In this document: positions 13,676-17,363 of the stretch, one piece after another
Position numbering within the stretch: the stretch's first letter is position 1
Layout: every line of letters starts with the position of its first letter
Assembly: GCA_012517255.1 (NCBI GenBank)
Contig: JAAYVH010000293.1
Coordinates: 1 to 33,659 of the forward strand
Origin: Chthonomonadales bacterium
Lineage (GTDB): Bacteria; Armatimonadota; Chthonomonadetes; Chthonomonadales; CAJBBX01
DNA length: 33,659 bases
Direction: 5' to 3'
Made by a program: the position numbers and the translations under genes
Notes under the pieces: model-generated
The model's input: only the letters and a program-made list of their open reading frames with translations
Told to the model about the DNA's origin: nothing
The model's database searches: none

Positions 13676-14647
13676 TCAACGGCGAAGGAACGCGCCTGCG
13701 CCCACGATCGCCGCCACCAGAATCGCAGCATACAGCAACGCGAAGGCCTCACTGCGCGAATAGCGGAACCGGCGCCAATGAGCCGCCACCACCACGACCG
13801 CCATCGGCACCAGCGCCGGCATGCGCCAGCCGGTGATCAGTACGACGAGCATGTACAGGCCGAGCACCACTGACAGCGGCCAGACGGTTCGCGCGAAGCC
13901 CTCACGCTCTCCGGCAAAGCGACACATGGCGGCGACAAAGAAGGCGATAAAGAGGAAGTCGGCAAAGCCGACCACGGCGATCGGAGCCGCTCCCGCCGTC
14001 GTTGTCGGCAGCTTCACGGTCATCGCTTCCGCCACGCGCTGCGCAGCGGGCGCCTCGCTCTCCATGATCTGATGCACCGGTCCGCCCAGGGTCACGGTCC
14101 ACACATCCACGAGAGCCAACACTGCCGCAACCGGCGGCACCATGTTGGCGCTGCGAATCAAACGGGACAGCAGGATGCCGAGGCCAGCCCCGAGCGCGAT
14201 GAACGCGAGGTCTGCCAGGCCCGCAACGGACAGGAGCCAGCTCCACGGCGCCATGGGCTTACCCATCGCCACCATCAGTCGCAACGGTACCGCGGCGACG
14301 GTGGCGCAAACCGTCAGCGCCAGCGCCGCACGAAGGCTTCGGACCGCTCTGCCGTAGGAAGCAGCCAGGACGACGACGAGAACGAGGGAGACGAGGGTTG
14401 ACAGCACGACCGTGCCAATGCGCTCATCACGCACGCGCGGCGCGGCCTGCCAGTAGATGAGGTACGCGAGCGTCGGCCACAGCGCGCTGCGCCAGCCGGC
14501 TGGCGCACGGCTGTCCTTTGCAGACGCCTCATCAGCCTGGCGTTCCGAACGTGACGCGCTACCCAAATCGGTATTCCGTGTTCCCCTGATGTTGTGCAAG
14601 CCGTTGGTCGGGAGCGCCCTGGCGCCGAACGTTCTTTGACTTGGCAA
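13676..14647 (-). CDS. Polytopic membrane protein, candidate presenilin/SPP-like intramembrane aspartyl protease
   Basis: An integral membrane protein of up to 323 residues with about nine hydrophobic segments after an N-terminal polar stretch of some 50 residues. Numbering is from TTG 14647, which sits eight bases after a strong -10; a later TTG at residue 28 is an alternative start. Three features in the right order recall A22 proteases: an aspartate inside a helix (LALVDVWTV, D181), then GFAD within the next helix (IAVVGFADFLFIA, D230), then MPALVPM opening a later helix (P277-L279). Presenilin and SPP use a helix D, GxGD and PAL with about 50-60 residues between them; here the gaps are 49 and 47. 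The second glycine of GxGD is alanine. Protease function is inferred and unproven; an uncharacterised membrane protein is the fallback. Confidence 0.6.
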   Translation of the reverse strand: MPSQRTFGARALPTNGLHNIRGTRNTDLGSASRSERQADEASAKDSRAPAGWRSALWPTLAYLIYWQAAPRVRDERIGTVVLSTLVSLVLVVVLAASYGRAVRSLRAALALTVCATVAAVPLRLMVAMGKPMAPWSWLLSVAGLADLAFIALGAGLGILLSRLIRSANMVPPVAAVLALVDVWTVTLGGPVHQIMESEAPAAQRVAEAMTVKLPTTTAGAAPIAVVGFADFLFIAFFVAAMCRFAGEREGFARTVWPLSVVLGLYMLVVLITGWRMPALVPMAVVVVAAHWRRFRYSRSEAFALLYAAILVAAIVGAGAFLRR

Positions 14648-14665
14648 GCCCGCGTATTGTACAAT
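14636..14665 (+). promoter_or_regulatory. Sigma70-type promoter for the ANTAR regulator/kinase operon
   Basis: TTGACT (14636-14641), an 18-base spacer and TACAAT (14660-14665). Transcription should begin near 14672, giving a leader of about 200 bases before the response regulator. The -10 shares the palindrome ATTGTACAAT (14656-14665) with the opposing promoter, so RNA polymerase can open only one of the two at a time. Confidence 0.65.
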
Positions 14666-14684
14666 GATGCCCAGCGACGGTCAA
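14656..14684 (-). promoter_or_regulatory. Sigma70-type promoter for the presenilin-like gene
   Basis: On the minus strand TTGACC (14684-14679), a 17-base spacer and TACAAT (14661-14656). The expected start of transcription is around 14650-14648, at or just before the TTG start codon (14647), suggesting a leaderless mRNA if that codon is used. Its -10 overlaps by two bases the -10 of the plus-strand promoter at 14636-14665. Confidence 0.65.
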
Positions 14685-14791: not shown

Positions 14792-14874
14792 CCCGACGCC
14801 CCCCAGTCTGCAGTACGTGCCGCGCCCCCTGCTCATTGCCTGACCGCCCTGAAGACCCTTTCGGAGTAGATACC

Positions 14875-15471
14875 GTGACAGAGACGCCACCATCGGAAAG
14901 ACAACTACGCATCGTGATCGCCGACGACGAGCCGCTGATCAGGATCGATCTCAAGAACACGCTCGAGGAGCTCGGCTATGCCGTCGTCGCGGAGGCGGCG
15001 GACGGCGTCAAGGCGCTGGAGGCAGTTCGCGCCTTGACGCCCGACGTCGTGATCCTGGACATCAAGATGCCGATCATGGATGGCATTGATGTCGCCAAAG
15101 CAATCCACGCCGAGCAGATCGCGCCCGTGCTGCTGCTGACCGCCTACTACGAGTCCGATCTGATTGACCGGGCCAAGGATGCGGGCGTGTACTACTACCT
15201 GGTAAAGCCCTTCAAGCAGTCCGATATTGTGCCGGCTGTGGAGATCACGCTGAGTCGGTGGCAGGAGCACCTTGCGCTCGAACGCGAGGCTCGCGACCTC
15301 GAGGACAAGCTGGAGACGCGCAAGTCGGTGGATCGCGCCAAAGGCATCCTGATGGACCAGTACGGCCTCAAGGAACAGGAAGCGTTCCGGCGTATCCAGG
15401 TGCAGAGCATGAACACCCGCAAGTCCATGCGCGACATTGCCGAAGCGATCATCCTGGCTCACAATGTCTAG
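14875..15471 (+). CDS. ANTAR-domain response regulator (PdtaR/EutV type)
   Basis: A 198-residue regulator beginning at GTG 14875, eight bases after GGAG; a TTG at 14836 in frame has no such site. The receiver domain (11-125) has the acidic pair D17-D18, phospho-acceptor D62 (VVILDIKMP), T89 and K111 (LVKPF). A helical linker (QEHLALEREARDLEDKLETR) leads to the ANTAR domain (about 137-195: VDRAKGILMDQYGLKEQEAF, then RRIQVQSMNTRKSMRDIAEA). ANTAR regulators bind paired RNA hairpins and prevent transcription termination when phosphorylated. The partner is the HisKA_2 kinase 65 bases downstream. The leader and a hairpin in the intergenic gap may be its own targets. Confidence 0.93.
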   Translation: MTETPPSERQLRIVIADDEPLIRIDLKNTLEELGYAVVAEAADGVKALEAVRALTPDVVILDIKMPIMDGIDVAKAIHAEQIAPVLLLTAYYESDLIDRAKDAGVYYYLVKPFKQSDIVPAVEITLSRWQEHLALEREARDLEDKLETRKSVDRAKGILMDQYGLKEQEAFRRIQVQSMNTRKSMRDIAEAIILAHNV

Positions 15472-15536: not shown

Positions 15537-17363
15537 ATGTCATCGTCTTCTCGGGGCGGACGCTTCAAAGTTCGCTTTCGCAATATCTTCCGGCACCCGA
15601 CGACCGGCGAGACGCCGCTGCCTGCGGCTGATCTCGTGGCCTCCGATCCGGAGACCCTCCGCAGGGAGATTGAGGTGCGGGACGCCGCCTTGCTGAAAGC
15701 AGAGCAGATGATCCAGTCTCTGCGCGAGGAGCTCGACGAGAGACGGTCAGAAGCCGATGCGCTCCGGCGCGTGGGTGAGGCAACCGGCGCCGCCTTCGAT
15801 CTCGAGGACATGCTGCAGGTGACCGTGGAAGTGGCCATCCACGTGACGCGAACGGACTCCTGCCAGATATACCTGCTGGACCCCAAGACCAATGAGCTGG
15901 TGCTGCGCGCAGCCGATGAAACCGGCCAGTCCATGATCGGCAAAATCCGGCTCAAGGTCGGCGAAGGCATCACGGGCTGGGCCGCCAAGGAGAGGAAGCC
16001 GGTTGCCGTTCCCAAGAACGCCTATGAGGACGATCGCTTCCGATTCTTCCCGGAGATCCATGAGGAGCAGTTCGAGAGCATCCTGTCCGTGCCGCTGCTC
16101 TCGCGCGGCCGCGTTCTTGGCGTGGTGAACGTCCGAACGCGCGAGCCCCGCGAGTACACCAAGCATCAGATGCGACTGCTATCCGGCATTGCCGGACAGG
16201 TCGCCGGAGCCATTGAAAAGGCCAGCCGCACCCGCGATCTGGAGCGAACTGCGGTGCAGCTCCAGCAGTTGTCCGAAGTCAGTCGGACCATCATGTCGAA
16301 TGTCTACCTCGACGACATGCTGCTGAAGTTCGTCCAGCTCACGGCTCGGGCGATGTCCTATAAGATATGCACGGTCATGCTTGTCAACCATCAGACGCAG
16401 GAGCTGGTAATCAAGGCAACGTGCGGCTCCGATGGGCGCGCGCCGATCCCCGAGTACGTCCACAAACCGCCCATCAGGCTCGGCGAGAGCATCGCAGGCA
16501 GAGCGGTGCTGCAGGGCCGGATCATGACCGTGCCCGATGTCAAGAAGCATCCCCACACTCGCTTCCCTGACATAGCCGAACGAGCCGGGCTGACTTCGCT
16601 GGCTTCGGTACCGCTCATGATCACCGGCGAGGTGCTTGGCGTTCTGAACTGCTACACCGAGCGCGTGCACGAGTTTCCGCCGGAGGAGCTGGCCATTCTG
16701 CAGGCTCTGGGAGCGCAGGCGGCGTTAGCCATTCAGACAGCACGCTTGATGATGAAGTCCGCCGTCATTCAGGAGATGAATCATCGCGTAAAGAACAACC
16801 TGCAGCAGATCGCGAGTCTCGTGCGCCTGCAGATGCGGTACGGCGGATTCGCCACCGTCGAGGAGGCCATGAACGACACGCTCAGTCGTATCCAGGCGAT
16901 CGCAGCGGTCCATGAGCTGCTCCTCCGCGACGATCTCGACAGCGTCAGCATCGGGCGCCTTGCCGAGCACATTCTCTTTGCGACCAAACAGAGCGTCGTT
17001 GCGCCCGGAAAGAGCATCGTCACCGAGTTCGCGGGCCCCGACATTCGGCTTCCTCTGAGCCACGCCACGACGTTCGCCCTCGTCCTCAACGAGCTCGTGC
17101 AGAACGCCGTGGAGCACGGTTTCTCGGACCTCGACCAGGGGCGCATTCTGGTGGAGGCCCGTAAGACCGATGCGGAGATCACGGTCACAGTCCTCAACGA
17201 CGGTCACCCCCTCCCGGAGGGCTTCGATCCGTCCATGAAGGGCCGGCTCGGTCTACGCATCGTATCGGATCTGGTCCGCGGCGGCCTCAACGGCACCTTC
17301 ACCATGACCAGCGATCACGACGCCGGCGGTATCGTCGCTCGCGTTACCTTCCCGGTTCCCTGA
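15537..17363 (+). CDS. Cytosolic sensor histidine kinase, GAF-GAF-HisKA_2 (PdtaS/EutW type)
   Basis: A 608-residue soluble kinase with no membrane span. A short coiled coil (about 36-75, LRREIEVRDAALLKAEQMIQ) precedes a first GAF domain (about 85-225: VGEGITGWAAKERKPVAVPK, SILSVPLLSRGRVLGVVNVR) and a second (about 245-400: LGESIAGRAVLQGRIMTVPD, LASVPLMITGEVLGVLNCYT). The HisKA_2 phosphorylation motif is EMNHRVKNNLQQIASLVRLQ with H416, followed by the ATPase domain with N-box LNELVQNAVEHGF and a glycine box near GRLGLRIVSDLVRGG. GAF domains bind small ligands; the signal cannot be told from sequence. HisKA_2 kinases commonly phosphorylate ANTAR regulators, as in PdtaS-PdtaR. The ATG at 15537 has only a weak upstream ATAGG. 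Confidence 0.92.
   Translation: MSSSSRGGRFKVRFRNIFRHPTTGETPLPAADLVASDPETLRREIEVRDAALLKAEQMIQSLREELDERRSEADALRRVGEATGAAFDLEDMLQVTVEVAIHVTRTDSCQIYLLDPKTNELVLRAADETGQSMIGKIRLKVGEGITGWAAKERKPVAVPKNAYEDDRFRFFPEIHEEQFESILSVPLLSRGRVLGVVNVRTREPREYTKHQMRLLSGIAGQVAGAIEKASRTRDLERTAVQLQQLSEVSRTIMSNVYLDDMLLKFVQLTARAMSYKICTVMLVNHQTQELVIKATCGSDGRAPIPEYVHKPPIRLGESIAGRAVLQGRIMTVPDVKKHPHTRFPDIAERAGLTSLASVPLMITGEVLGVLNCYTERVHEFPPEELAILQALGAQAALAIQTARLMMKSAVIQEMNHRVKNNLQQIASLVRLQMRYGGFATVEEAMNDTLSRIQAIAAVHELLLRDDLDSVSIGRLAEHILFATKQSVVAPGKSIVTEFAGPDIRLPLSHATTFALVLNELVQNAVEHGFSDLDQGRILVEARKTDAEITVTVLNDGHPLPEGFDPSMKGRLGLRIVSDLVRGGLNGTFTMTSDHDAGGIVARVTFPVP

Follow-up and report, generated by a model that had tools for sequence, protein, structure and literature searches.

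The proteases presenilin and signal peptide peptidase (SPP), which cleave proteins within the membrane and among which is the enzyme implicated in Alzheimer's disease, are described in the literature consulted from eukaryotes and archaea. SPP-type enzymes cleave transmembrane helices of N-in orientation (PMC7768045). Replacement of the second glycine of the GxGD motif by alanine lowers the activity of presenilin (PMC2947513), an effect that the title of a paper cited there extends to GxGD proteases generally. A literature search returned no paper joining Armatimonadetes and an intramembrane protease. The gene compared with these enzymes here lies in a stretch of 33,659 nucleotides from a Chthonomonadales bacterium (contig JAAYVH010000293.1; hereafter the window), and on sequence comparison and structural modelling it very probably belongs to a new bacterial family homologous to presenilin and SPP, of putative intramembrane aspartyl proteases. 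A family of this kind spread through a bacterial phylum bears on the origin of the presenilin/SPP enzyme class.

The gene and its motifs

The features of the locus that are used below are as follows.

13676..14647, minus strand: presenilin/SPP-like gene, encoding the window protein, of 323 aa if TTG 14647 is taken as the start
14105..14107, minus strand: codon of D181, the putative catalytic aspartate of the first motif, which lies towards the end of predicted helix 167-186
13958..13969, minus strand: GFAD codons (G227-D230), with the second putative catalytic aspartate, D230, at the start of predicted helix 228-245
13805..13819, minus strand: PALVP codons (277-281), the PAL loop, preceding predicted helix 279-289
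13967..14020, minus strand: codons 210-227, a predicted beta hairpin directly before the D230 helix (strands 210-212 and 225-227 by DSSP on models)
13748..13750, minus strand: codon of E300, usually within R-x-E in homologues, where the extra last helix (298-322) begins
14656..14684, minus strand: promoter-like TTGACC-17-TACAAT, near-consensus as judged from sequence, ending 8 bases before TTG 14647
14836..15471, plus strand: response-regulator gene (open reading frame as listed), a divergent and conserved neighbour
15537..17363, plus strand: sensor-kinase gene, a divergent and conserved neighbour

In the window protein, D181 is found within LALVDVWTV, D230 within VVGFADFLF, and the third motif is P277-A278-L279-V280-P281; the two aspartates are 49 residues apart and D230 is 47 residues from PAL. 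The sequence-only reading had proposed a presenilin/SPP-like protease on the order and spacing of these three motifs, had pointed to the missing tyrosine of the first and the missing second glycine of the second, and had placed the gene alone, opposite signalling genes. These observations are borne out: the motifs lie where they were placed, the second is GFAD, and the divergent genes encode a response regulator and a sensor kinase. The motif set exceeds chance expectation: shuffling the window protein's own sequence 20,000 times produced the pattern D..Gx[GA]D..PAL at such spacings in 28 cases, and no open reading frame among 335 neighbours has it.

Because the promoter-like sequence ends so close to TTG 14647, the true start of the window protein is probably TTG 14599 or 14566, or else the message may be leaderless. 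Whichever start is used, the first helix modelled with confidence begins at residue 53.

Distribution and motif conservation

The open reading frame at 13676-14647 is a real, conserved gene, and the family is mostly single-copy and near-universal in its phylum. The window protein's single sequence retrieved no related loci; an alignment-based search found 29, mostly from Armatimonadota and including Chthonomonas and Fimbriimonadales. Homologues were present in 56 of 61 related genomes and, by profile search, in 233 of the 251 Armatimonadota genomes sampled (172/179 among those of good quality). No match was found in a plasmid search for the family.

The genome G087 carries two family members in tandem on the plus strand (locus L107, 838-1788 and 1813-2718), which suggests duplication and possibly specialisation. 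Five well-assembled genomes had no match to the family profile (G043, G056, G069, G184 and G187), three of them from one genus and the other two being 1.5-Mb genomes of another; these are possible losses of the gene.

Outside Armatimonadota the family is sparser. A sample that reached other bacterial phyla added two genomes, within whose own phyla 3/3 and 5/10 genomes were positive, and a mixed profile run against a wider bacterial sample matched 20 of 385 genomes, including scattered single ones. Nearly all of the homologues outside the phylum have canonical motifs, although one, L159, has GVAD rather than GxGD. The motifs of L157 read ADIYSVAQGP..GMGDFIIL..PLPALPF, and those of L170 VDFWSVSQGP..GVGDLIIL..IPALPVI; L157 was admitted to the family by its match to the family profile (~1e-20) and not by its likeness to presenilin.

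Conservation was assessed in 71 divergent homologues from many families. D181, G227, D230 and E300 are invariant (71/71), P277 is found in 69, 51 have PAL and 12 PGL as the third motif, and an arginine follows D230 at a distance of 13 residues in 63; the motifs are kept down to about 25% identity. We know of no presenilin or SPP residue that corresponds to E300. D181 is preceded by V in 40 homologues, I in 14, M in 6, A in 5, T in 3, F in 2 and L in 1, and by tyrosine in none.

The GxAD variant

The tetrad at D230 is GFAD in 28, GPAD in 12 and GxGD in 31 of the same 71 sequences, so that GxAD accounts for 40. It is the normal state in the window protein and in every member of its order that was compared (27 of 27 rows in the clade). 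In a quick tree with an arbitrary root, glycine was the basal state and alanine was clustered, the best tree requiring four or more changes; GxGD looks ancestral on these sequences, and a single origin of alanine is possible, being compatible with the starred branches of the tree. Position and substitution are those of PS1 G384A, a familial Alzheimer mutation that is reported to slow catalysis. The GxAD lineages are naturally occurring counterparts of an active-site change that causes disease, and they pose a testable question, namely how an enzyme might compensate for the absent glycine.

The presence of GxAD instead of GxGD in the window protein's own lineage might also be taken to mean that the family keeps the presenilin/SPP fold and serves mainly as a scaffold, chaperone or ion-leak protein without proteolysis, and the title of a paper cited in PMC7997004 reports archaeal presenilin-like proteases also as channels. 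Such a role is unlikely, since pseudoenzymes usually lose catalytic residues, whereas here both aspartates are invariant, PAL is largely kept, and most of the distant homologues retain the full GxGD.

Sequence similarity to A22 proteases

Taken alone, the window protein matched nothing in Pfam, NCBIfam or PDB, and none of the Armatimonadota members tested singly passed the cut-off of any A22 family in Pfam or NCBIfam, in keeping with the earlier remark that the protein is divergent and that ordinary profile searches may miss it. PF06550 was absent from the 61 Armatimonadota genomes, while the same search matched Haloferax and Methanosarcina; genome searches with PF01080 and PF04258 were also negative but, having been run without a positive control, carry little weight.

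Profiles of the family are more sensitive. A 29-member profile searched against all PDB sequences had presenilin-1 as its sole match (E 0.18); with 70 members presenilin-1 was second (E 0.011), behind a nicotinic receptor (E 0.0072); and with 39 diverse members it ranked first of 177,635 sequences (E 3.3e-4), the next unrelated match having E 0.038. All three matches place GxGD of the family on GLGD of presenilin-1 and PAL on PALP. As a yardstick, a stretch of human SPP matched presenilin-1 with E 0.056, a comparison of single sequence with single sequence that is not strictly comparable. L157 matched Pfam Presenilin (PF01080) over the TM7-PAL part with E 0.0031, its score being below the curated cut-off.

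Profile-profile comparison with hhalign, in which the A22 side consisted of three or four human sequences (PS1, PS2, SPPL2a), archaeal PSH not being among the matches of the PDB sequence searches, pointed the same way. The GxGD-PAL part of SPPL2a, PS1 and PS2 aligned to the family at 92.5% with a score of 43, and 300 column shuffles scored no more than 20. Against two family profiles, PS1 gave 85% and 94.6% and SPPL2a 59% and 68.7%, whereas decoys consisting of 28 E. coli proteins (mostly membrane proteins, with two GxGD prepilin peptidases among them) and reversed A22 sequences gave at most 2.6%. When TM6 of PS1 was joined to TM7-PAL, its loop having been shortened by hand and the registers left unconstrained, 100 columns aligned to the family with D257 on D181, D385 on D230, GP on GP and PAL on PAL; in this register YDLVAVLCPKGPLRMLVET falls on VDVWTVTL-GGPVHQIMES, LGLGDFIF on VGFADFLF and LPALP on MPALV. 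The probes for the PS1 TM6 and SPPL2a regions are identical to the PDB chains along almost their entire length (for PS1, from residue 255 on). In the reciprocal direction, a hidden Markov model of three human A22 sequences ranked family members 1 to 6 among 1607 open reading frames, with a modest best E of 0.018.

The same comparisons bear on kinship with the prepilin and preflagellin peptidases (A24) instead of A22, an assignment that GxGD and two membrane aspartates, common to A24 enzymes, would allow. It is very unlikely: E. coli GspO and PppA gave less than 1% in hhalign against the family profiles, compared with 85-95% for PS1, and Peptidase_A24 was absent among the matches listed for 70 members. 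To our knowledge, A24 enzymes also have no PAL loop.

Predicted structure and membrane topology

An AlphaFold2 model computed with 70 family sequences (pLDDT 86, pTM 0.83) has helices at 167-186, with D181 near the end, and at 228-245, with D230 near the start, separated by a loop of about 40 residues that contains a short helix (200-208) and short strands (210-212 and 225-227). Presenilin has a like arrangement, in which beta1 and beta2 pair with the substrate (PMC10290658). When the model was compared with PDB by Foldseek, the top 11 matches were all presenilin-1 or SPPL2a, with probabilities of 0.95-1.00; the best E was 0.0055, TM-scores were about 0.4 and rmsd was high. In view of the low TM-scores and weak E-values, the overall arrangement may differ from that of A22 enzymes, or the model may be partly wrong.

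Low TM-scores would also be expected of an unrelated polytopic membrane protein, such as a transporter or polymerase, whose motifs resemble those of A22 by convergence, and hydrophobic sequences do yield spurious profile matches, as with the nicotinic receptor. Convergence is nevertheless quite unlikely, because the three motif regions align in register in an unconstrained profile comparison, shuffled, reversed and E. coli decoys fail, and the fold search independently puts only A22 proteins on top.

The model and hydropathy predict that the catalytic helices are TM5 and TM6, not TM6 and TM7 as in the nine-helix A22 proteins, so that the family would have one helix fewer before the first aspartate helix and one more after the PAL helix. 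Lysine and arginine, averaged over 70 members, amount to 1.5-2.2 per 10 residues in one set of loops (the N-terminus, 98-107, 160-168, 242-256 and 289-301) and 0.3-1.25 in the opposite set. By the positive-inside rule, this bias predicts that the loop between the aspartate helices, and with it the active site, lies on the outer side of the membrane, an orientation shared with SPP and the reverse of that in presenilin.

Genomic neighbourhood

Next to the family gene in Chthonomonadales, and divergent from it, are genes for a response regulator and a sensor kinase of the GAF type, an arrangement kept in 16-17 of the loci compared. Most loci of this order have the pair, as do some other families. 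In other, deep-branching families (L131, L138, L145 and L150) a gene resembling leucyl-tRNA synthetase lies directly downstream on the same strand. The family gene of Fimbriimonadales is preceded by genes that look like ctaA and mqnE; all of these names were given by sequence recognition. Neighbours that vary in this way speak against a fixed substrate partner. The leucyl-tRNA synthetase-like neighbour is reminiscent of the ileS-lspA operons of other bacteria.

SppA (PF01343), the usual signal peptide peptidase of bacteria, was absent from the three searched genomes of the window's own family (G000, G006 and G007) and present in most control bacteria; in the phylum, 34 of 61 genomes had a match above the cut-off. 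SppA was considered as a complementary partner and rejected, as its presence does not mirror that of the family. Its absence from several genomes of the window's own family suggests where the function may be sought.

Proposed identity and function

Motif conservation, profile and profile-profile comparison and the fold search, which were among the checks named with the original proposal, all favour a presenilin/SPP-like protein, and the product of the gene is most likely a homologue of presenilin and SPP that acts as an intramembrane aspartyl protease. It is not assigned to A22A or A22B, because two of the features examined for membership were found to differ, the first aspartate not being preceded by tyrosine and the catalytic helices not being placed at TM6 and TM7.

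Such a protease would activate a water molecule between D181 and D230; the substrate helix would unwind, pair with the hairpin and the PAL loop, and then be cleaved inside the membrane. As the loop between the aspartates is predicted to face outward, its likely substrates would have N-in helices and may include spent signal peptides, signal anchors and single-pass proteins. That almost all genomes of the phylum carry the gene, mostly in one copy, suggests a housekeeping function in the turnover of membrane proteins. A more ambitious picture, in which the family is a bacterial sister of presenilin and SPP, is kept as a core gene by almost the whole phylum, has moved one helix from the N-terminal to the C-terminal side, has fixed the equivalent of G384A in a large lineage, and perhaps takes part in a circuit of regulated intramembrane proteolysis with the divergent kinase and regulator, is possible but doubtful. 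The bacterial family may provide small, single-protein models of gamma-secretase and SPP.

Comparison with known systems

The A24 enzymes (GspO, FlaK) resemble the bacterial family in being aspartyl membrane proteases of the GxGD type, but have no profile similarity to it. The archaeal presenilin homologue PSH (MCMJR1, PF06550) is likewise prokaryotic, of the GxGD type and a single protein of about 300 aa; unlike the bacterial family, it has YD, GxGD and PPL instead of PAL (PMC2947513).

Presenilin (A22A; PS1 and PS2 of gamma-secretase) shares with the family a stretch after the first aspartate of the form D-x3-V-(2 to 4 residues)-G-P, which reads YDLVAVLCPKGP in PS1, VDVWTVTLGGP in the window protein and FDVWLVFVPEGP in L111. 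It also shares GxGDF-F, LPAL(P) and a predicted beta hairpin before TM7, and the Pfam match of L157, though weak (E 0.003), is in register. The bacterial family differs from presenilin in its predicted orientation, which is opposite, in having no long TM6-TM7 loop and in the missing tyrosine; the partners found in gamma-secretase are not expected for it.

The SPP family (A22B; human SPP and SPPL2a) differs from the bacterial one in that the latter is bacterial, has no Pfam match to Peptidase_A22B, lacks YD, has GxAD in the window protein's lineage, and is predicted to have four rather than five helices ahead of the first aspartate helix, with an additional one following the PAL helix. The two families are alike in having D and GxGD on neighbouring helices together with a PAL loop, an arginine 13 residues after the second aspartate (RF/RRFD; 63 of 71 in the bacterial family), a basic stretch of the WRR type after the PAL helix and an active-site loop that is predicted to face outward, and the bacterial protein, like SPP, probably acts without partner subunits.
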